Source: Thermoanaerobacterium sp. RBIITD (lineage in GTDB: Bacteria > Bacillota > Thermoanaerobacteria > Thermoanaerobacterales > Thermoanaerobacteraceae). Taken from it: a stretch of 64,000 nt of DNA. The notes beneath the pieces were generated by a model. The model did no database searches. It was given only the letters and a program-made list of their open reading frames with translations, and was not told the origin of the DNA. Shown here piece after piece: positions 30,952 through 39,491 of this stretch. Within the stretch, counting starts at the first letter, position 1. The number at the start of each line of letters is the position of its first letter. The stretch is taken from NCBI RefSeq assembly GCF_900205865.1, contig NZ_LT906662.1, forward strand, positions 2,431,411 to 2,495,410. Direction: 5' to 3'. A program made the translations under genes and the position numbers.

Positions 30952-31608
30952 ATGGATGTTAATGATGCTTTAATAAGACAGATAACAGAAGAAGTCCTGA
31001 AAAGGATTAATAACCGCGATATCAAAACTGTTGTTGCTCCAAGCAAACCTGATCATTCAGGAAAGCTTAAGCTTATAGAATTAGGTGAAGCCCAAAAAGG
31101 TATAAATAGCGACGAAGTAGTTATAGCAATAGGGCCGGCATTTGGAGAATACCAAACAAAAACAATAGTTGGAATACCACATGAAGATGTATTGAGAGAA
31201 GTATTAGCAGGGATTGAGGAAGAAGGCATAAAGTCAAGGGTAATAAGAGTTCTACGTACATCTGATGTTGGATTTATGGCACATGATGCGGCTTCTTTGA
31301 GTGGTTCGGGCATAGGCATAGGCATACAGTCTAAAGGAACAACCGTCATTCATCAAAAAGATTTAGCACCACTTGATAACCTTGAATTATTTCCACAAGC
31401 TCCATTAATCGATAGGCAGACATATAGAGCAATAGGCAAAAATGCCGCGAAATATGCAAAAGGTGAATCACCATCACCTGTCCCGGTTAAAAATGATCAA
31501 ATGGCGAGACCAAGATATCAGGCTATTGCTGCTGTGCTTCATATAAAAGAGACAGAACATGTTGTCCCTAATGCTAAGCCTATTGAACTACAAGTTGAAT
31601 TTAAGTAA
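30952..31608 (+). CDS. pduD: Propanediol dehydratase, medium subunit
   Basis: 218-residue beta subunit of diol dehydratase. The first ~20 residues ([20 protein letters not shown]) form an amphipathic helix followed by a linker, the pattern of microcompartment encapsulation peptides; the Salmonella PduD N terminus is an experimentally known targeting signal. The body has family landmarks [20 protein letters not shown] and [20 protein letters not shown]. It lies between pduC and pduE with close spacing. Confidence 0.95.
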
Positions 31609-31617
31609 GGGGGATTT

Positions 31618-32127
31618 ATGATGCAGGATGAGATGTTGGAAAAGATAATTCGCGATGTGCTAAAGACCATGGGTGAAAAAACTGATAACAAAAAGGAAGA
31701 AAATTGCAATAACATCTGTAAAGTGACATATAAGGATTATCCACTCGCACAAAAACGTAAAGATTTAGTAAAAACGTCCACTGGTAAAGGACTTGACGAT
31801 ATAACGTTAGATTCAGTTTTAAATGATAAGGTAACACCTGATGATATTAGAATAACAAGTGATACATTACTATATCAGGCTCAAGTCGCTGAGTCTGTTG
31901 GAAGACACCAATTTGCAAGGAATTTAAGAAGAGCTGCGGAGCTTACAAAAGTTCCTGATGACAGGGTGCTTGAAATATATAATGCTTTAAGACCGAGAAG
32001 GTCAACTAAAGATGAACTTTTGTCAATTGCTAACGAGCTTGATGAAAAATATGGTGCGAAGATGAATGCTGACCTTATAAGAGAAGCTGCAGATGTTTAT
32101 GAAAGAAGGGGCATTTTAAAAGCTTGA
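31618..32127 (+). CDS. pduE: Propanediol dehydratase, small subunit
   Basis: 169-residue gamma subunit that completes the (alpha-beta-gamma)2 enzyme. An N-terminal helix of encapsulation-peptide type (QDEMLEKIIRDVLKTMGEK) is followed by a charged linker, then the conserved body (YPLAQKRKDLVKTSTGKGLD, then SVGRHQFARNLRRAAEL). RBS is AAGGGGGA; either of two consecutive ATG codons (31618 or 31621) may start it. Confidence 0.95.
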   Translation: MMQDEMLEKIIRDVLKTMGEKTDNKKEENCNNICKVTYKDYPLAQKRKDLVKTSTGKGLDDITLDSVLNDKVTPDDIRITSDTLLYQAQVAESVGRHQFARNLRRAAELTKVPDDRVLEIYNALRPRRSTKDELLSIANELDEKYGAKMNADLIREAADVYERRGILKA

Positions 32128-32142
32128 CAGAGGTGATAATAA

Positions 32143-33963
32143 TTGAATCTGATTGCTGGAATCGATATAGGAAATTCGACAACAGAAGTCGCCATAGCAG
32201 ATATTGAAAGTAAAAAATTTATATCAAGCGGTATAACAAAGACAACAGGCATAAAAGGAACTGTTGACAATGTCCCTGGCATATTAATAGCACTTGACAA
32301 TGCAGCTTCGAATGCCGGCATTAACCTAAAAGACATTAAGATGATAAGGATTAATGAGGCAACACCTGTAATCGGTGATGTAGCTATGGAAACAATAACA
32401 GAAACCATAATAACAGAATCTACTATGATTGGCCATAATCCTACTACACCAGGTGGAGTTGGGCTTGGAATTGGTACAACGGTTTATATAGATGAACTCC
32501 AGAATTTGCACGCTGGTGATAATGTAATATGTATAGTTCCGCCAAACATGGATTTTGAAGAAGCTGCAAATAGAATAAATAGTGCGTTAGATAATAATGT
32601 CAATGTTAATGGGGCAATTGTTAAAAAGGATGACGCAGTTCTCATTTGTAATAGACTTAAAAAGAAAATACCTATAGTTGATGAAGTTGAATTGATAGAT
32701 AAAGTCCCATTAAATATGAAAGCAGCTGTCGAAGTTGCAAATCCGGGTGAAACACTAAAAGTTCTTTCAAATCCATATGGAATTGCAACGGTATTTGAAT
32801 TAACCCCCGAAGAAACAAAACACATTATACCTGTTGCAAGGGCACTTATAGGTAATCGCTCAGCCGTTGTTATAAGAACTCCTCAAGGTGAAGTCAAAGA
32901 GAGAGTAATTCCAGCAGGTAAATTAATATTATTCGGGAAAAGCAAAATAGAAGTGGAAATTGGCAGTGGTTCAAAAAAGATAATGGAGAGAGTTGATGAA
33001 GTTAAACCATTAATAGATGTATCAGGAGAACCGGGGACTAATGTCGGTGGTATGCTTGAAAGAGTAAAGCAAGTTATGTCGAAATTGACGAAGCAGCCGA
33101 TAAGTGATATGCATATACAGGATATCCTTGCAGTTGATACATTTATACCACAAAAGGTCAAAGGAGGCATTGCTGGGGAGTTTTCCTTAGAGAATGCAGT
33201 TGGCCTCGCTGCAATGGTTAGAACAAATAAATTACCAATGCAACAAATAGCTAAAAAATTAGAAGACGAAACAGGAATAAAAGTTAGTATTGCCGGTGTC
33301 GAAGCGAATATGGCAGTACTCGGGGCACTTACTACCCCTGGAACAAGTAGACCCCTTGCCATACTTGATATGGGAGGTGGTTCAACTGATGCAGCATATA
33401 TTGATAAAAGTGGTAAAATAAGGTCAATTCACCACGCGGGTGCTGGTGATATGGTAACAATGCTTATTAAATCTGAGTTAGGACTTGATAGTTTTGATAT
33501 TGCAGAAAACATCAAAAAATATCCACTTGCAAAAGTAGAAAGTCTATTTAACATCAGATTGGAAGATGGAACAGTTCAATTTTTTGAAAATCCTTTAGAC
33601 TCTTCACTTTTTGCAAGAGTAGCTGTTATAACCGAGAATGGCCTTGAGCCAATACCGACAAAGTATAGCATGGAAAAAATAAAAGTTGTCAGAAGAGATG
33701 CTAAAAAGAAAGTTTTTGTATCAAATGCTATAAGGGCACTTAAAGATATTTCGACGACAGGCGATATAAGGGGCACGGAATTCGTAGTTTTGGTAGGTGG
33801 TTCTGCATTAGATTTTGAAATTCCTGATATGATATCTGATGCGCTTTCTAAATATGGAATAGTATGCGGAAGAGGCAATATTAGAGCAAAAGAAGGACCA
33901 AGGAATGCTGTAGCTACAGGGCTTGTACTATCATACTTATATGGAAGTGAAAACAATGGGTAA
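32143..33963 (+). CDS. pduG: Diol dehydratase reactivase, large subunit
   Basis: 606-residue chaperone-like ATPase that releases damaged cobalamin from inactivated diol dehydratase. The actin/Hsp70-type nucleotide-binding start AGIDIGNSTTEVAIADI and the later AILDMGGGSTDAAYI phosphate loop are visible. TTG 32143 is the start, behind AGAGGTGAT. It ends overlapping pduH by 8 bp, consistent with coupled synthesis of the heterodimeric reactivase. Confidence 0.95.
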   Translation: MNLIAGIDIGNSTTEVAIADIESKKFISSGITKTTGIKGTVDNVPGILIALDNAASNAGINLKDIKMIRINEATPVIGDVAMETITETIITESTMIGHNPTTPGGVGLGIGTTVYIDELQNLHAGDNVICIVPPNMDFEEAANRINSALDNNVNVNGAIVKKDDAVLICNRLKKKIPIVDEVELIDKVPLNMKAAVEVANPGETLKVLSNPYGIATVFELTPEETKHIIPVARALIGNRSAVVIRTPQGEVKERVIPAGKLILFGKSKIEVEIGSGSKKIMERVDEVKPLIDVSGEPGTNVGGMLERVKQVMSKLTKQPISDMHIQDILAVDTFIPQKVKGGIAGEFSLENAVGLAAMVRTNKLPMQQIAKKLEDETGIKVSIAGVEANMAVLGALTTPGTSRPLAILDMGGGSTDAAYIDKSGKIRSIHHAGAGDMVTMLIKSELGLDSFDIAENIKKYPLAKVESLFNIRLEDGTVQFFENPLDSSLFARVAVITENGLEPIPTKYSMEKIKVVRRDAKKKVFVSNAIRALKDISTTGDIRGTEFVVLVGGSALDFEIPDMISDALSKYGIVCGRGNIRAKEGPRNAVATGLVLSYLYGSENNG

Positions 33964-34393
33964 TGAAATACCATCAATAGTTATTTCAACAAATGGTTGT
34001 AATGATAGAATCTTAAGGGAAATAAAAGCTGGGATAGAAGAAGAAGGTATACCTTATAAAGTATATGTCGATAGTAAGGAATTTTATAAAACTCCGTATA
34101 ATACAGCACTAATCTCAAAATTTGGGATAGGAGCAAATGCTAATAAAAATAATTTAACATTGTATTATTCAAAAATGCCTGATAAAAAGCCTGTTTTTGA
34201 TATCAGTATTGGTGATAGCGATTATCAGGTTGCGAGAAATTTTGGAACAAATGCTGCAAGATTATATAAAGGATTACCCTTTAAATTACTTCAAAAAACT
34301 AAAAATGATACAGCAGATAAAAAGAAAGATAACACTGATATTTTAGAGAATATTGTTAAAGAAATTGTTGAAAAATATATATCCAGCAGATAA
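33956..34393 (+). CDS. pduH: Diol dehydratase reactivase, small subunit, with C-terminal targeting-like helix
   Basis: 145-residue protein whose N-terminal ~120 residues match the reactivase small subunit (VISTNGCNDRILREIKAGIE, then ISIGDSDYQVARNFGTNAA). The ATG at 33956 lies inside the end of pduG. The last ~30 residues are extra compared with the ~125-residue Salmonella protein: a Lys/Asp linker then TDILENIVKEIVEKYISSR. This amphipathic helix resembles the N-terminal encapsulation peptides of PduD, PduE and PduP in this operon, but is placed at the C terminus. Confidence 0.92.
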   Translation: MGNEIPSIVISTNGCNDRILREIKAGIEEEGIPYKVYVDSKEFYKTPYNTALISKFGIGANANKNNLTLYYSKMPDKKPVFDISIGDSDYQVARNFGTNAARLYKGLPFKLLQKTKNDTADKKKDNTDILENIVKEIVEKYISSR

Positions 34394-34409: not shown

Positions 34410-35021
34410 GTGATAACAAAAGCATTAGGATTAATTGAGACTATAGGACTTGCCGCCGCTATAGAGGCATGTGATACAGCATTAAAATCAGCAGACATCA
34501 CACTTATTGGATATGAGCTTTCAAAAGGTGGTGGCATGGTAACTGTTAAGATACAAGGTGATGTTGGTGCTGTTAAAGCTGCAGTTGAAGCTGCAAAGAT
34601 AGCTGCTTCAAAGGTTAACAAGGTATACACAAGTGTTGTAATACCGAGGCCAATTGAAGGTATAAAAGATATGGTTGTATCAGCCGAAACTGTTGGAGTA
34701 GCAAAACAACAATATGATGTTGATAATTCTGATAATAATCTGAATTCAACAGACAATGTAATCAAAATTAGTAAATTAAAGGAAATAAAGGCCAATAAAG
34801 ATGGAAATAAAACTAATAAAGCCGAAGAAGCTGAGGAAGAGAAAGACGAAGAAGATGAAGTTGAAGAAATAGGAGAAGTTATGATTGAAATAGAAAATAA
34901 AGATGAGACAAAATTAGACGAAATTGCAAATACAAAGGATGTATGCAATTTATGCAAAGATCCGCTTTGCCCGAGAAGAAAAGGGCAGCCGAGAAATTTA
35001 TGCATACATTACAAAAAATAA
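34410..35021 (+). CDS. pduK: Shell protein with BMC domain and Cys-rich tail (PduK-like)
   Basis: 203-residue shell protein. Residues 1-90 are a BMC domain (ALGLIETIGLAAAIEACDTA; pore loop SKGGGMVTV). A long, highly acidic linker (many Glu/Lys, ~110-175) leads to a tail with CxxCxxxxCx10C (from VCNLCKDPLCPRR to LCIHYKK), a possible Fe-S or zinc site as noted for PduK. GTG 34410 is the start because GGAGGTGAT precedes it; an upstream in-frame ATG lies inside pduH. Only some hexamers probably contain it. Confidence 0.9.
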   Translation: MITKALGLIETIGLAAAIEACDTALKSADITLIGYELSKGGGMVTVKIQGDVGAVKAAVEAAKIAASKVNKVYTSVVIPRPIEGIKDMVVSAETVGVAKQQYDVDNSDNNLNSTDNVIKISKLKEIKANKDGNKTNKAEEAEEEKDEEDEVEEIGEVMIEIENKDETKLDEIANTKDVCNLCKDPLCPRRKGQPRNLCIHYKK

Positions 35022-35388: not shown

Positions 35389-36045
35389 ATGGAGGAAAAT
35401 TTATCGGAAGTAATTGCTAAAGAAATATTAAAAACAATATCGATAAAAGATCGAAGCTATTCTATACCAATAGGCATATCAAACCGGCATATTCATCTGA
35501 CACAGGATGACCTTGAAGTATTATATGGTAAAGGGTATGCTCTAACAGTGAAAAACAAAGTCAATCAACCAGGACAATTTGCGGCTAATGAAACTGTTAC
35601 AATAGCGGGGCCAAAAGGTTCTTTGTCAAATGTCAGAGTTTTAGGCCCTGTGAGAAAATATAGTCAGATAGAGATATCAAGAACAGATTCTTATATACTT
35701 GGCATAAAACCACCTGTAAGGGATTCTGGAGACCTTAAAGATTCTGAGACACTTGCAGTAATTGGACCAAAAGGTTCTTTAATTTTTAAAAATAAAGTGA
35801 TATGTGCGAAGCGACATATTCACATGCTAAAAGAAGATGCGGAAAGATATGGTGTAAAAAATGGAGATTTTGTTGATGTGGAAACACAAGGTGAAAAAGG
35901 GATCATATTCAAAAATGTATTAATACGGGTAAATGATAAAAACAAACTTGAAATGCATATCGATACAGACGAAGCGAATTGCTGCGAAATAAAAAATGGC
36001 GATATGGTCAGAATTGTAAAGATATATAAATATAATGAGGAATGA
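35389..36045 (+). CDS. pduL: Phosphate propanoyltransferase PduL
   Basis: 218-residue zinc-dependent phosphotransacylase that converts propionyl-CoA and phosphate to propionyl-phosphate, recycling CoA inside the shell. Two zinc-site repeats are visible: [14 protein letters not shown] and [16 protein letters not shown], plus [13 protein letters not shown] near the end. An N-terminal helix ([20 protein letters not shown]) is a likely encapsulation peptide. An acetate/propionate kinase (PduW) to use the product is absent here and must be elsewhere. Confidence 0.95.
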
Positions 36046-36049
36046 TAAA

Positions 36050-36796
36050 ATGGATATCGAAAAGTTAATTGATGAAGTATATGCTGAAGTAGTAAGACGT
36101 ATTGGACGGAAAGTTTTATTATTTTTTAGTGGTACACCTCTCAATATTGACTCTATTTTATCTGACCTTAAAAAAGCTAAGAAATATAATATATGCTACA
36201 AATCTGTTTTATCAGATGCAGCAAAGAAAGTCATAGGAATTGATAAAATATTAAGCATTAGCGATGTTTTAGAAGAAAAGGATGATATTACGACATCTAT
36301 AAAAGAGGCGGACTTTATTTTAGTAGCATCTCTGACAAGAAATACACTTGCAAAGGTAGCCCTTGGCATACAGGACACTAAAGTTACACTTGGCTTAGCC
36401 GAAGCCTTTATGTTTAATAAAAAAATCATAATTGTTAAAGATGGAGCAGATTTTAAAAACCAATTTAGGATATCAAAGGGAATGACAAAAAATGAGGCAT
36501 ATAATAGAATGCTTTTAAATTATTTTAAGATACTTGAAAGCTTTGGAGCTACTCTCGTTAATTCCAGTGATCTATTTGATGTTATAAAAGGTATATTTGA
36601 TTTGAATTTTCAAAAGAGAAGTTATAAAAATGACATTTGCGATGATACAAAATTGAATTCTAATGTAGTAACACTCCAAGATTTACTTAATATTGGCAAA
36701 TCGAAGACAATTTATATAAAAAAGAATGCATTAGTAACACCTCTCGCGAATGATTACATAATGGACAACAAAATAAGGCTTATAAGGGAGGAATAA
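36050..36796 (+). CDS. Putative flavoprotein of the microcompartment locus
   Basis: 248-residue protein. An N-terminal helix MDIEKLIDEVYAEVVRRIG resembles the encapsulation peptides of its neighbours. The remainder looks like the flavoprotein (HFCD/Dfp-like) alpha/beta fold: VLLFFSGTPLNIDSILSDLK, then ADFILVASLTRNTLAKVALG. The C terminus VTPLANDYIMDNKIRLIRE is a phrase found in other microcompartment-associated proteins. No assigned function; a flavin redox or cobalamin-reduction role would be a guess. It is fitted tightly between pduL (4 bp) and pduN (2 bp). ATG 36050 follows GAGGA. Confidence 0.6.
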   Translation: MDIEKLIDEVYAEVVRRIGRKVLLFFSGTPLNIDSILSDLKKAKKYNICYKSVLSDAAKKVIGIDKILSISDVLEEKDDITTSIKEADFILVASLTRNTLAKVALGIQDTKVTLGLAEAFMFNKKIIIVKDGADFKNQFRISKGMTKNEAYNRMLLNYFKILESFGATLVNSSDLFDVIKGIFDLNFQKRSYKNDICDDTKLNSNVVTLQDLLNIGKSKTIYIKKNALVTPLANDYIMDNKIRLIREE

Positions 36797-37125: not shown

Positions 37126-38062
37126 TGGAGAAACATCTTTACTCGGAAATATTAGGGTACCTAAATGTGATATGCGAGTCGAAGCATATGGCACGATTGA
37201 TGAGGCAAATTCTTATTTGGGACTTGTAAGATACAGCATTATAGATAAAGACCTAAAAAATATTATAATAAACATACAGAAGAAACTGTTTGATGTTGCA
37301 GCTGAACTTGCTTCTATAGATAGAGAGAGGTTTCCAGAGAAGATAAGAGAAGAAGACGTCCTCGAGCTTGAAAAAATTATCGATGAATACTCAAATAAAA
37401 TTCCTAAGCAACAAGGTTTTGTAATACCAGGAAACAGTAAAAGTGCTTATTTTGACGTTGCAAGGACAATTATACGTAGAGCTGAAAGATGTATAATTTC
37501 ACTCAACTTCAAAGAAAGAGTAAATCCACACCTCATTAAATATATAAATAGATTATCAGATTTAATATATATTTTAGCCAGGTTTGTTGATTATAGCGAA
37601 ATATATGAAAAGGTGAAAAAAGTGGTAGGTTTATCACCAATTAAAAAGATGAATCTTGAGTTAGCAAGGAAAATAGCTGAAAGTGCCGAATATATGGCAG
37701 AAAAAATAGGTATACCGGTAGTAATCACTATTGTTGATGATGGAGGAAATCTTGTACTACAGGAAAGAATGGACGGAGCACTTCTATTAAGTATTAATAT
37801 ATCGAAAGGAAAGGCATATACAGCGGTTGCGCTAAAAATGAATACGGAAGATTTAAAAGATATGACGGGGCCGAATGGTGAGCTTTTAGGCATAAACACA
37901 GTTGACAAAAAAGTTGTTACATTTGGAGGTGGAATAGCTTTAAAAATTGGAAATGATGTTATAGGTGGTTTAGGTGTAAGTGGAGGAACTGTTGAACAAG
38001 ATATGAAAATAGCCAAAGCGGGTTTCGAAAAATTTAAGGAGGTAATGTACAATGGAGATTAA
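37097..38062 (+). CDS. pduO: PduO: ATP:cob(I)alamin adenosyltransferase fused to a GlcG/HbpS-like domain
   Basis: 321-residue protein. Residues 1-180 are a PduO-type adenosyltransferase (KIYTKTGDSGETSLLGN, RVEAYGTIDEANSYLGL, TIIRRAERCIISL) that makes adenosylcobalamin for the dehydratase. Residues ~190-321 are a DUF336/GlcG-HbpS domain (VVITIVDDGGNLVLQERMDG), heme-binding in some relatives. ATG 37097 follows GGGGGA and overlaps pduN by 29 bp. No cobalamin reductase (PduS) is encoded nearby. Confidence 0.95.
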   Translation: MKIYTKTGDSGETSLLGNIRVPKCDMRVEAYGTIDEANSYLGLVRYSIIDKDLKNIIINIQKKLFDVAAELASIDRERFPEKIREEDVLELEKIIDEYSNKIPKQQGFVIPGNSKSAYFDVARTIIRRAERCIISLNFKERVNPHLIKYINRLSDLIYILARFVDYSEIYEKVKKVVGLSPIKKMNLELARKIAESAEYMAEKIGIPVVITIVDDGGNLVLQERMDGALLLSINISKGKAYTAVALKMNTEDLKDMTGPNGELLGINTVDKKVVTFGGGIALKIGNDVIGGLGVSGGTVEQDMKIAKAGFEKFKEVMYNGD

Positions 38063-39491
38063 GGATGATATGATATCTGAAGTTATAGAACGTGTTCTTA
38101 AGGAGATACAAGAAAAAAGTATAAACGATAAGTATCAAAATGGCATATATGACCGAATGGAAGATGCAATTGAAGCGGCATATGAAGCACAAAAAGAACT
38201 TATGAAAATGTCAATAGAGCAAAGGGAAAGGCTTATATCGGAAATGAGGAAAGCAATACTTGATAATGCAAAAAACTGTGCTAAGTTAGCAGTTGAGGAA
38301 ACAGGAATGGGCAGAGTAGATCACAAATATCTAAAATTAAAGTTAGTTGCAGAAAAGACTCCCGGTACTGAAGTGCTTACAACAAAAGCTTATTCCGGTG
38401 ATAAAGGCTTGACACTCGTAGAGATGGCTCCTTTCGGAGTAATTGGCAGCATAACACCATCGACTAATCCGGCAGAGACAGTTTGCTGCAATAGCATTGG
38501 AATGATAGCTGCGGGGAATTCAGTTGTATTTAGCCCACATCCAGGTGCAGTTAAATCATCTTTAATGGCTGTTGAATTTTTAAATAAGGCAATAATAGAA
38601 GCTGGGGGACCCGAAAATTTAATAACATCTGTAAGAAAACCATCACTTGACGCTACAAATGTTATGATAAAACATCCTAAAATAAGTCTCTTAGTTGCAA
38701 CTGGCGGACCTGGTGTCGTAAAAACAGTATTATCTTCAGGGAAAAAAGCTATAGGTGCTGGCGCGGGTAATCCACCTTGCGTTGTTGATGAGACAGCTGA
38801 TATAAAAAAGGCTGCAAGGGATATAATTCTTGGTTGTACTTTTGACAACAACTTACCGTGCATTGCAGAAAAAGAGGTAATAGCTGTTGAACCAATATAT
38901 GAAGACTTAATTAATAATATGAAAAAAAATGGTGCATATGAATTAACAGATAATGAGGCAGAAAAGCTTGTTAATATAGTGTTAACTAAAAAAGAAGAGT
39001 TAAAAGCAGAAGGTTGTTCAATAAAAAGATCTAAATTTGAATATGCTGTAAATAAAAAATGGGTTGGAAAAGATGCTAAAGTTTTACTTGAACAAATAGG
39101 TGTTAATGTGGGTGATGATATAGTTTGTATAATTTATCGCTGTAATAAAGAACATCCTTTTGTACAGGAAGAACTAATGATGCCGATACTGCCAATTGTC
39201 AAAGTAAAAAATATAGATGAGGCAATAAATGTAGCTGTAGAAGTAGAACATGGAAATCACCATACGGCAGAAATGCATTCAAAGAATATTGATAATTTGA
39301 CACGTTTTGCAAGAGCAATAAATACTACGATATTTGTAAAAAATGCACCTTCATATGCTGGAATAGGATTCGGTGGTGAAGGATTTACAACATTTACAAT
39401 AGCTGGTCCGACAGGTGAAGGTTTAACATGTGCAGCAACATTTACCAGACAGAGAAGATGTGTAATGGTTGATTCATTTAGAATTGTATAA
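38052..39491 (+). CDS. pduP: CoA-acylating propionaldehyde dehydrogenase PduP
   Basis: 479-residue enzyme converting propionaldehyde, CoA and NAD+ to propionyl-CoA and NADH. An N-terminal helix (MEIKDDMISEVIERVLKEIQ) is the encapsulation signal, like the one shown to target PduP in Salmonella. The catalytic Cys is at about residue 270 in TFDNNLPCIAEKEV; AGAGNPPCVVDE and FGGEGFTTFTIAGPTGEGL are conserved in the family. It overlaps pduO by 11 bp. Confidence 0.95.
   Translation: MEIKDDMISEVIERVLKEIQEKSINDKYQNGIYDRMEDAIEAAYEAQKELMKMSIEQRERLISEMRKAILDNAKNCAKLAVEETGMGRVDHKYLKLKLVAEKTPGTEVLTTKAYSGDKGLTLVEMAPFGVIGSITPSTNPAETVCCNSIGMIAAGNSVVFSPHPGAVKSSLMAVEFLNKAIIEAGGPENLITSVRKPSLDATNVMIKHPKISLLVATGGPGVVKTVLSSGKKAIGAGAGNPPCVVDETADIKKAARDIILGCTFDNNLPCIAEKEVIAVEPIYEDLINNMKKNGAYELTDNEAEKLVNIVLTKKEELKAEGCSIKRSKFEYAVNKKWVGKDAKVLLEQIGVNVGDDIVCIIYRCNKEHPFVQEELMMPILPIVKVKNIDEAINVAVEVEHGNHHTAEMHSKNIDNLTRFARAINTTIFVKNAPSYAGIGFGGEGFTTFTIAGPTGEGLTCAATFTRQRRCVMVDSFRIV

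Follow-up and report, generated by a model that had tools for sequence, protein, structure and literature searches.

The window, a stretch of 64,000 nucleotides from Thermoanaerobacterium sp. RBIITD (contig NZ_LT906662.1), holds a pdu operon in which the small subunit of the diol dehydratase reactivase, PduH, continues beyond its domain into an additional C-terminal helix. This raises the question of whether the helix is an encapsulation peptide (EP) and, with it, of how the reactivase PduGH reaches the interior of the Pdu compartment. EPs have been described as amphipathic helices of 15 to 20 residues, attached to the N or C terminus of a protein via a flexible linker (PMC8217296; PMC11157265). 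For Salmonella, an earlier study describes terminal extensions on PduC, PduD, PduE, PduP and PduL and on none of the other proteins (PMC4315436). Salmonella PduG and PduO are reported to enter the core without a signal sequence, which may depend on the body of PduD (PMC12108088), while PduGH labeled with sfGFP on PduH is reported to be dispersed when no compartment forms, and PduG to be cytosolic once PduCDE and the N terminus of PduB have both been removed (PMC9132943). Salmonella compartments are said to contain PduG and PduH at 2:1, with about 38 PduH each (PMC7181861), and a paper on Listeria describes the encapsulation route of PduGHOS as still to be elucidated (PMC6873790). Word searches of an open-access library turned up no description of PduH as an EP-bearing protein, though an earlier listing in a supplement or in the EP review PMC4594438 is possible.

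The pdu operon and the C terminus of PduH

The operon comprises shell genes, pduCDE, pduG, pduH, shell genes, pduL, a flavoprotein gene, pduN, pduO, pduP and an iron alcohol dehydrogenase gene (Table 1). The genome carries a single pduH, its other PF02288 match being pduD. The start of pduH overlaps the end of pduG, and its stop codon is followed by GGAGG and the GTG start of a BMC shell gene. PduH is identified as the DDR small subunit by its Dehydratase_MU domain (PF02288, 67.8 bits, residues 6-110), its DDR-beta fold and the position of its gene directly after pduG (TIGR04491); none of the NCBIfam models matched it at E 0.001. The Pfam domain stops at residue 110, and the protein ends in GLPFK-LLQKTKNDTADKKKDN-TDILENIVKEIVEKYISSR, with a K/D/N-rich linker ahead of TDILENIVKEIVEKYISSR at residues 127-145 (34334-34390). 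The Lys/Asp linker and terminal helix that the first-pass annotation had described at the end of PduH are both present.

We modeled PduH with AlphaFold2, using 37 PduH sequences. The model has a mean pLDDT of 90.1, with the core mostly above 90, a linker that drops below 50 at residues 117-123 and a terminal helix (residues 126-144) at about 95. Foldseek placed the core on the Klebsiella oxytoca DDR beta subunit (2d0p_B, E 1.2e-10, TM 0.85 by target length). A model of PduH from Heliobacterium mobile (L068; loci and genomes are cited by our own L and G numbers) has the same arrangement of a confident core, a low-confidence linker and a confident helix at residues 132-151. The tail is thus predicted to be a separate helix on a disordered linker.

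The shell protein encoded directly downstream carries a long acidic extension with a cysteine-rich end (CNLCKDPLCPRRKGQPRNLC), which is possibly a metal site.

Table 1. Features of pduH and its neighborhood, with the helices used for comparison, in window coordinates; scores in bits without a model name are from the EP matrix.
Feature	Position	Strand	Evidence
pduH, 145 aa, ATG at 33956	33956..34393	+	
PduH core (residues 1-110), diol dehydratase reactivase small subunit (DDR beta)	33956..34285	+	PF02288; model against 2d0p_B, TM 0.85
Charged PduH linker (residues 111-125)	34286..34330	+	low pLDDT; length and sequence variable among relatives
PduH C-terminal EP-like helix (residues 126-145)	34331..34390	+	predicted helix 126-144; EP matrix
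pduH stop codon (TAA)	34391..34393	+	sequence
pduG, encoding the large reactivase subunit; no EP at its N or C terminus	32143..33963	+	TIGR04491, 991 bits; best EP site 1.5 bits
BMC shell protein directly 3' of pduH (GTG start)	34410..35021	+	PF00936, 90.4 bits
PduD N-terminal EP (comparison helix)	30952..31011	+	25.2 bits
PduE N-terminal EP (comparison helix)	31618..31680	+	21.6 bits, DEMLEKIIRDVLKT
PduL N-terminal EP (comparison helix)	35389..35451	+	10.5 bits
PduP N-terminal EP (comparison helix)	38052..38118	+	20.1 bits, DDMISEVIERVLKE
Shell protein PduB, N-terminal EP-like helix	28434..28500	+	11.6 bits; PduB model NF011944, 445.9 bits
Flavoprotein between pduL and pduN, N-terminal EP-like helix	36050..36110	+	11.4 bits

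Similarity of the PduH tail to N-terminal encapsulation peptides

To score candidate EPs we used an ungapped matrix of 14 positions (consensus EKLIEEIVREVLAE), derived from 357 distinct N termini of PduD, PduE, PduP and PduL in loci with shell genes; no PduH was contained in its training. The best EP site lay at the N terminus of PduD, PduE, PduP, PduB, the flavoprotein and PduL, and at the C terminus of PduH. The PduH tail scored 14.6 bits at residues 131-144, with a second register of 13.6 bits at residues 127-140, which ranks it after the N termini of PduD, PduE and PduP and ahead of those of PduB, the flavoprotein and PduL (Table 1). PduC, PduG, PduN, PduO, PduQ and the three other shell proteins of the window remained at or below 4.3 bits, and an internal site of PduP reached 9.6 bits.

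Composition shuffles reached 14.6 bits in 16 of 20,000 cases for the 35-residue tail and in 9 of 20,000 for the last 19 residues. On the former count we reject chance or composition as the source of the score, with the caveat that 17% of 5,000 shuffles that kept the pattern (hydrophobic residues exchanged among hydrophobic, polar among polar; median, 10.1 bits) also reach 14.6 bits. The EP signal of the tail is mostly hydrophobic spacing. We also considered the hydrophobic moment and discarded it as an EP test: the value for the tail (0.33) was equaled by 26% of 5,000 shuffles, and the EP of the operon's own PduD (0.33, equaled by 35% of shuffles) was not singled out either. Since pattern-keeping shuffles match the score this often and the moment does not rise above shuffles, any helix with such spacing would score well.

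Distribution of the tail among relatives

PduH sequences were collected from several sources. The survey of relatives' genomes covered 101, 14 of them with a match, and an even draw of 398 genomes from the phylum gave 30 with a match, 29 of which provided a PduH (L026-L054) and the thirtieth only PduD. A second draw from the phylum, which gave largely the same places as the first, was excluded from all counts. Scanning named genomes with alignment A1 confirmed 237 relatives, of which the best 80 were kept; the same scan with a single PduH protein as the query confirmed none. The window, these 80 named loci and 34 longer stretches made up 115 stretches, from which 3 proteins were dropped as duplicates by identity of their last 100 residues, leaving 112 distinct PduH. 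Two weak hits from the further draws described below (L234, 20 bits; L240, 27 bits) were set aside because their identity as PduH is doubtful, and L168, which ends at a contig edge, was counted among the tailed proteins and excluded from the pair and conservation counts.

The number of residues following the NAARxxK core motif is bimodal, being 5 to 19 in 73 of the 112 proteins and 33 to 132 in the other 39, which we call tailed. Fourteen of the 29 PduH from the even phylum draw are tailed, the window and some close kin included, as are 25 of the best 80 of the 237 named relatives. The latter fraction is biased upwards, since these relatives were ranked by how closely they resemble the PduH of the window with its tail. 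Tailed PduH occur in Sporomusa, Pelosinus, Heliobacterium, Geosporobacter, Candidatus Petromonas, Neobacillus, Robertmurraya, Bacillus methanolicus and Salipaludibacillus; short-ended PduH are found in the collected loci of Klebsiella, Citrobacter, Escherichia, Yersinia, Aeromonas and Lactobacillaceae. Sporomusa acidovorans has two pdu loci in one genome (L056 and L062), with a tailed PduH in both. Five loci from the genus and order of the window (L140-L144) have shell genes and an untailed PduH. Drawing 348 genomes from the class to which B. methanolicus belongs added 12 PduH, 1 with an EP tail (15.3 bits) and 10 with short ends; L182 (G490) of this draw, which is outside the 112, has a 46-residue end scoring -12.8 bits. 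In the phylum of L135, labeled Actinomycetota, none of five PduH (that of L135 included) has an EP tail; one of them, L230, likewise outside the 112, has a 27-residue end at -7.4 bits.

Judged from these sequences, C-terminal tails that resemble EPs recur on the PduH of Bacillota pdu loci. The statement of the first-pass annotation that standard PduH lacks the tail holds for the solved subunits and for the enterobacterial and lactobacillar loci collected, but not for Bacillota at large. Its description of the placement as unusual for this subunit is only partly borne out, given 39 tailed proteins among the 112 collected, 14 of 29 in the even draw, and the C-terminal EPs reported on other cargo (PMC8217296). 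The earlier interpretation thus appears right in kind and too narrow in scope, and we regard it as partly supported.

Conservation of the tail

Over the 39 tails, the median EP score was 9.3 bits. The first-pass annotation had let its reading depend on whether tails of relatives are amphipathic, which is borne out for most of them but not for all: 26 of the 39 reach at least 8 bits, whereas 13 stay below 8, including 6 below 3 (L091, L136, L150, L154, L159 and L168, with L136 coming from the window's own order). Among controls, 10 of 770 C termini of eight other Pdu families scored 8 bits or more, all ten of them PduO, as did 0.49% of 3,263 internal stretches of PduC, PduG and PduP. Hydrophobic residues occupy motif positions 3, 6, 7, 10 and 11 (counted from 0) in 89 to 100% of the 38 complete tails, matching the N-terminal EPs. 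In contrast, positions 0, 2, 4 and 8 are hydrophobic in 34, 47, 42 and 50% of PduH tails versus 5, 80, 10 and 19% of N-terminal EPs; the polar face of the PduH tails differs from that of the N-terminal EPs and is somewhat more hydrophobic.

We then compared 58 pairs of tailed PduH with core identities of 55 to 97%, which overlap in membership and so do not count as independent. Identity was 63% in the core, 52% in the EP and 31% in the linker, and the EP was more conserved than the linker in 49 of the 58 pairs. Core and helix are separated by 8 to 110 residues in tailed PduH. Residues following the helix in some relatives (e.g., VNTWSKTP) resemble a second conserved motif, a candidate that we rejected: in at least 12 relatives (L056, L057, L061, L063, L065, L068, L069, L071, L137-L139 and L165) pduH runs at its end into the ribosome-binding site or start of the following gene, from which these residues are read, and this makes them look conserved.

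Likewise rejected was the idea that the tail was copied from a neighboring EP. In each of six families, tested with 5,000 permutations, EPs of the same locus were no closer to the tail than those of other loci (fraction of permutations as high, 0.096 to 0.996), so there is no sign of recent copying; an older copying of a neighboring EP into PduH may still be compatible with this result.

The ten PduO C termini with at least 8 bits are among 105 (L070, L072, L082, L083, L093, L095, L102, L110, L126 and L150) and reach up to 18.2 bits. This EP-like C-terminal helix of PduO is seen in some lactobacilli and in G116. It may be an ordinary helix, or else a further C-terminal EP carried by an enzyme of cofactor recycling.

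Association with shell genes and phylogeny

At least two shell genes accompany each of the 39 tailed PduH within the stretch that was fetched. Shell genes lie beside 103 of the 112 PduH loci, and the tail is found in none of the 9 loci without nearby shell genes, though PduC, PduD, PduE and PduG are present there. This contrast is weak, because 64 of the 103 loci with shell genes are untailed and only four of the nine genomes (G125, G316 and those of L126 and L135) are ones in which we found no BMC domain, the other five having BMC domains elsewhere. The N terminus of PduD is EP-like (13 to 20 bits) in five of these nine loci, and an EP-like sequence is therefore no proof of a compartment at the locus. 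One of them, the diol dehydratase locus L126 of Ligilactobacillus pobuzihii, combines a genome in which no BMC domain was found with EP-like N termini on PduD (20.0 bits) and PduE (11.3 bits), which may be either a relic or the result of a gap in the assembly; its PduO C terminus, too, is EP-like, being one of the ten at 8 bits or more listed above.

A tree of the PduH core (117 columns) is poorly resolved, 40 of its 108 inner branches being open; on it the tail requires 10 changes versus a mean of 32.5 when shuffled. On this tree the tail is clustered and was gained or lost more than once, although the starred branches by themselves force a single change. A long branch leads to the PduH of the window. 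In the congeners G001, G003 and G006, PduH is untailed, 34 to 36% identical to that of the window over the match, and encoded in a different pdu locus (L140-L142), whose 18 kb stretch gave no match to the PduB model. The operon of the window may have been acquired from another lineage.

A flavoprotein gene associated with tailed PduH

The gene between pduL and pduN (36050-36796) encodes a flavoprotein-like protein (PF02441, 3.4e-9) with an EP-like helix at its N terminus. It is present with 37 of the 39 tailed PduH but only with 14 of the 64 untailed ones in shell-gene loci, a co-occurrence that kinship alone may explain. In Gammaproteobacteria the slot between pduL and pduN presumably holds pduM, a name that we assign from gene order. 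Comparing 51 flavoproteins with 10 such PduM (L074, L075, L077, L081, L089, L104, L105, L117, L123 and L127) by hhalign gave probabilities of 94.8 to 96.6, with a shared region around a C-terminal T.LA motif, versus at most 43.7 for ten other families of the loci; all of these are single comparisons and not library searches. PduM may be a reduced relative. It is described as having no known homology outside Pdu compartments (PMC12108088), and a search of an open-access library for PduM together with flavoprotein gave no paper.

A proposed C-terminal route of the reactivase into the compartment

With a probability that we put at roughly 0.8, on the strength of the sequence comparisons and the models, the PduH tail is a C-terminal EP that brings PduGH into the Pdu compartment directly. 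Sequence and models show a DDR-beta core followed by a disordered charged linker and a terminal helix with paired hydrophobic residues every three to four positions, like the N-terminal EPs of PduD, PduE, PduP and PduL. Weighing against the EP reading are the 13 tails below 8 bits, the pattern-keeping shuffles and ordinary hydrophobic moment, the different polar face, the high-scoring PduO C termini, the untailed PduH of L140-L144 and the non-scoring ends of L182 and L230. The helix would either join other EPs in the enzyme core or bind the inner face of the shell, and would thereby carry PduGH into the compartment independently of PduD. We looked for a compensating EP on PduG or at the PduH N terminus and rejected both: none of 111 PduG reached 8 bits at either end, compared with 26 of 39 for PduH in tailed loci, and the sole N-terminal PduH site above 8 bits (L101, 9.7 bits) lies inside the domain core. 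For the Klebsiella reactivase, PduH has been reported to leave PduG as the reactivase docks on the dehydratase, PduD taking its place (PMC4315436). Because of this departure, a tag on PduH rather than on PduG would hold the released subunit inside the compartment for the next round.

A narrower version of this reading, to which we give a real but minority chance, is that the helix acts as a condensation tag within the enzyme core only, joining the EP bundles of PduD, PduE and PduP without binding the shell. Self-association of metabolosome EPs is reported to involve hydrophobic packing together with an E-R salt bridge in which R to K is tolerated (PMC12339742), and inspection of the window tail reveals E131 and K135, four residues apart and hence at salt-bridge spacing, with an ambiguous register (two, at 14.6 and 13.6 bits). 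However, binding of EPs between shell hexamers has been reported (PMC11157265) and EPs have been modeled in the cleft of PduA (PMC4315436); shell binding and condensation can both be true.

Alternatively, the helix could be a contact to another subunit (PduG, PduC, PduD, PduE or a second PduH) that aids reactivation or assembly of the reactivase and has no role in encapsulation. The matrix is blind to the difference between an EP and another amphipathic helix of equal spacing, as the pattern-keeping shuffles illustrate, and the six tails below 3 bits would also suit such a contact. Nevertheless, we consider it improbable: the stretch between core and helix varies so widely in length and is so poorly conserved that a tether is favored over a fixed contact, the tail does not occur at the nine loci that lack nearby shell genes although the putative partners are encoded there, and the solved reactivase small subunits do without it. 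That the tail is a functionless by-product of gene overlap or of a reading-frame shift is hardly credible, for although overlap accounts for the residues after the helix in the relatives named above, pduH of the window stops before the GGAGG site, in the overlapping relatives the overlap starts only beyond the helix, and the helix is better conserved than the linker.

Taking the tail as a C-terminal EP, it is tempting to speculate, at somewhat less than even odds, that two import routes exist. In enterobacteria, PduGH would carry no tag and would enter with the dehydratase, while many Bacillota would tag the exchangeable PduH with a C-terminal EP and so keep the freed subunit captive in each reactivation cycle; the tag would have come or gone several times, on PduH and, among those seen, never on PduG. 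PduH with and without the EP-like tail are natural constructs that make the question of PduGHOS entry directly testable, and the tail adds a C-terminal tag for packing proteins whose N terminus must stay free.

Comparison with known systems

The core of PduH shares its fold and family with the DDR small subunit of K. oxytoca (2d0o/2d0p) and with the glycerol dehydratase reactivase (1nbw), but the solved chains (2d0o_B, 125 aa; 1nbw_B, 117 aa), both matched to residue 115, stop no more than about ten residues from the point where the Pfam domain of PduH ends and are without a linker and helix of this type. The C-terminal peptide of beta-carboxysome CcmN resembles the PduH tail in its placement, being C-terminal on a shell-bound component; CcmN differs as a carboxysome adaptor that is reported to be without the self-condensation of metabolosome EPs, and is likened to PduH here by description (PMC12339742). 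C-terminal EPs as in PduH are also known on type I aldehyde dehydrogenases and on a class II aldolase of Acidobacteria (PMC8217296). These sit on catalytic enzymes, whereas PduH is a chaperone-like reactivase subunit, and the likeness is again one of placement. Closest to hand are the N-terminal EPs of the Pdu proteins themselves, with which the PduH tail has in common its helix length, hydrophobic spacing, charged polar face and flexible linker, and from which it differs in being C-terminal, in its somewhat more hydrophobic polar face and in being carried by the small subunit of the reactivase.
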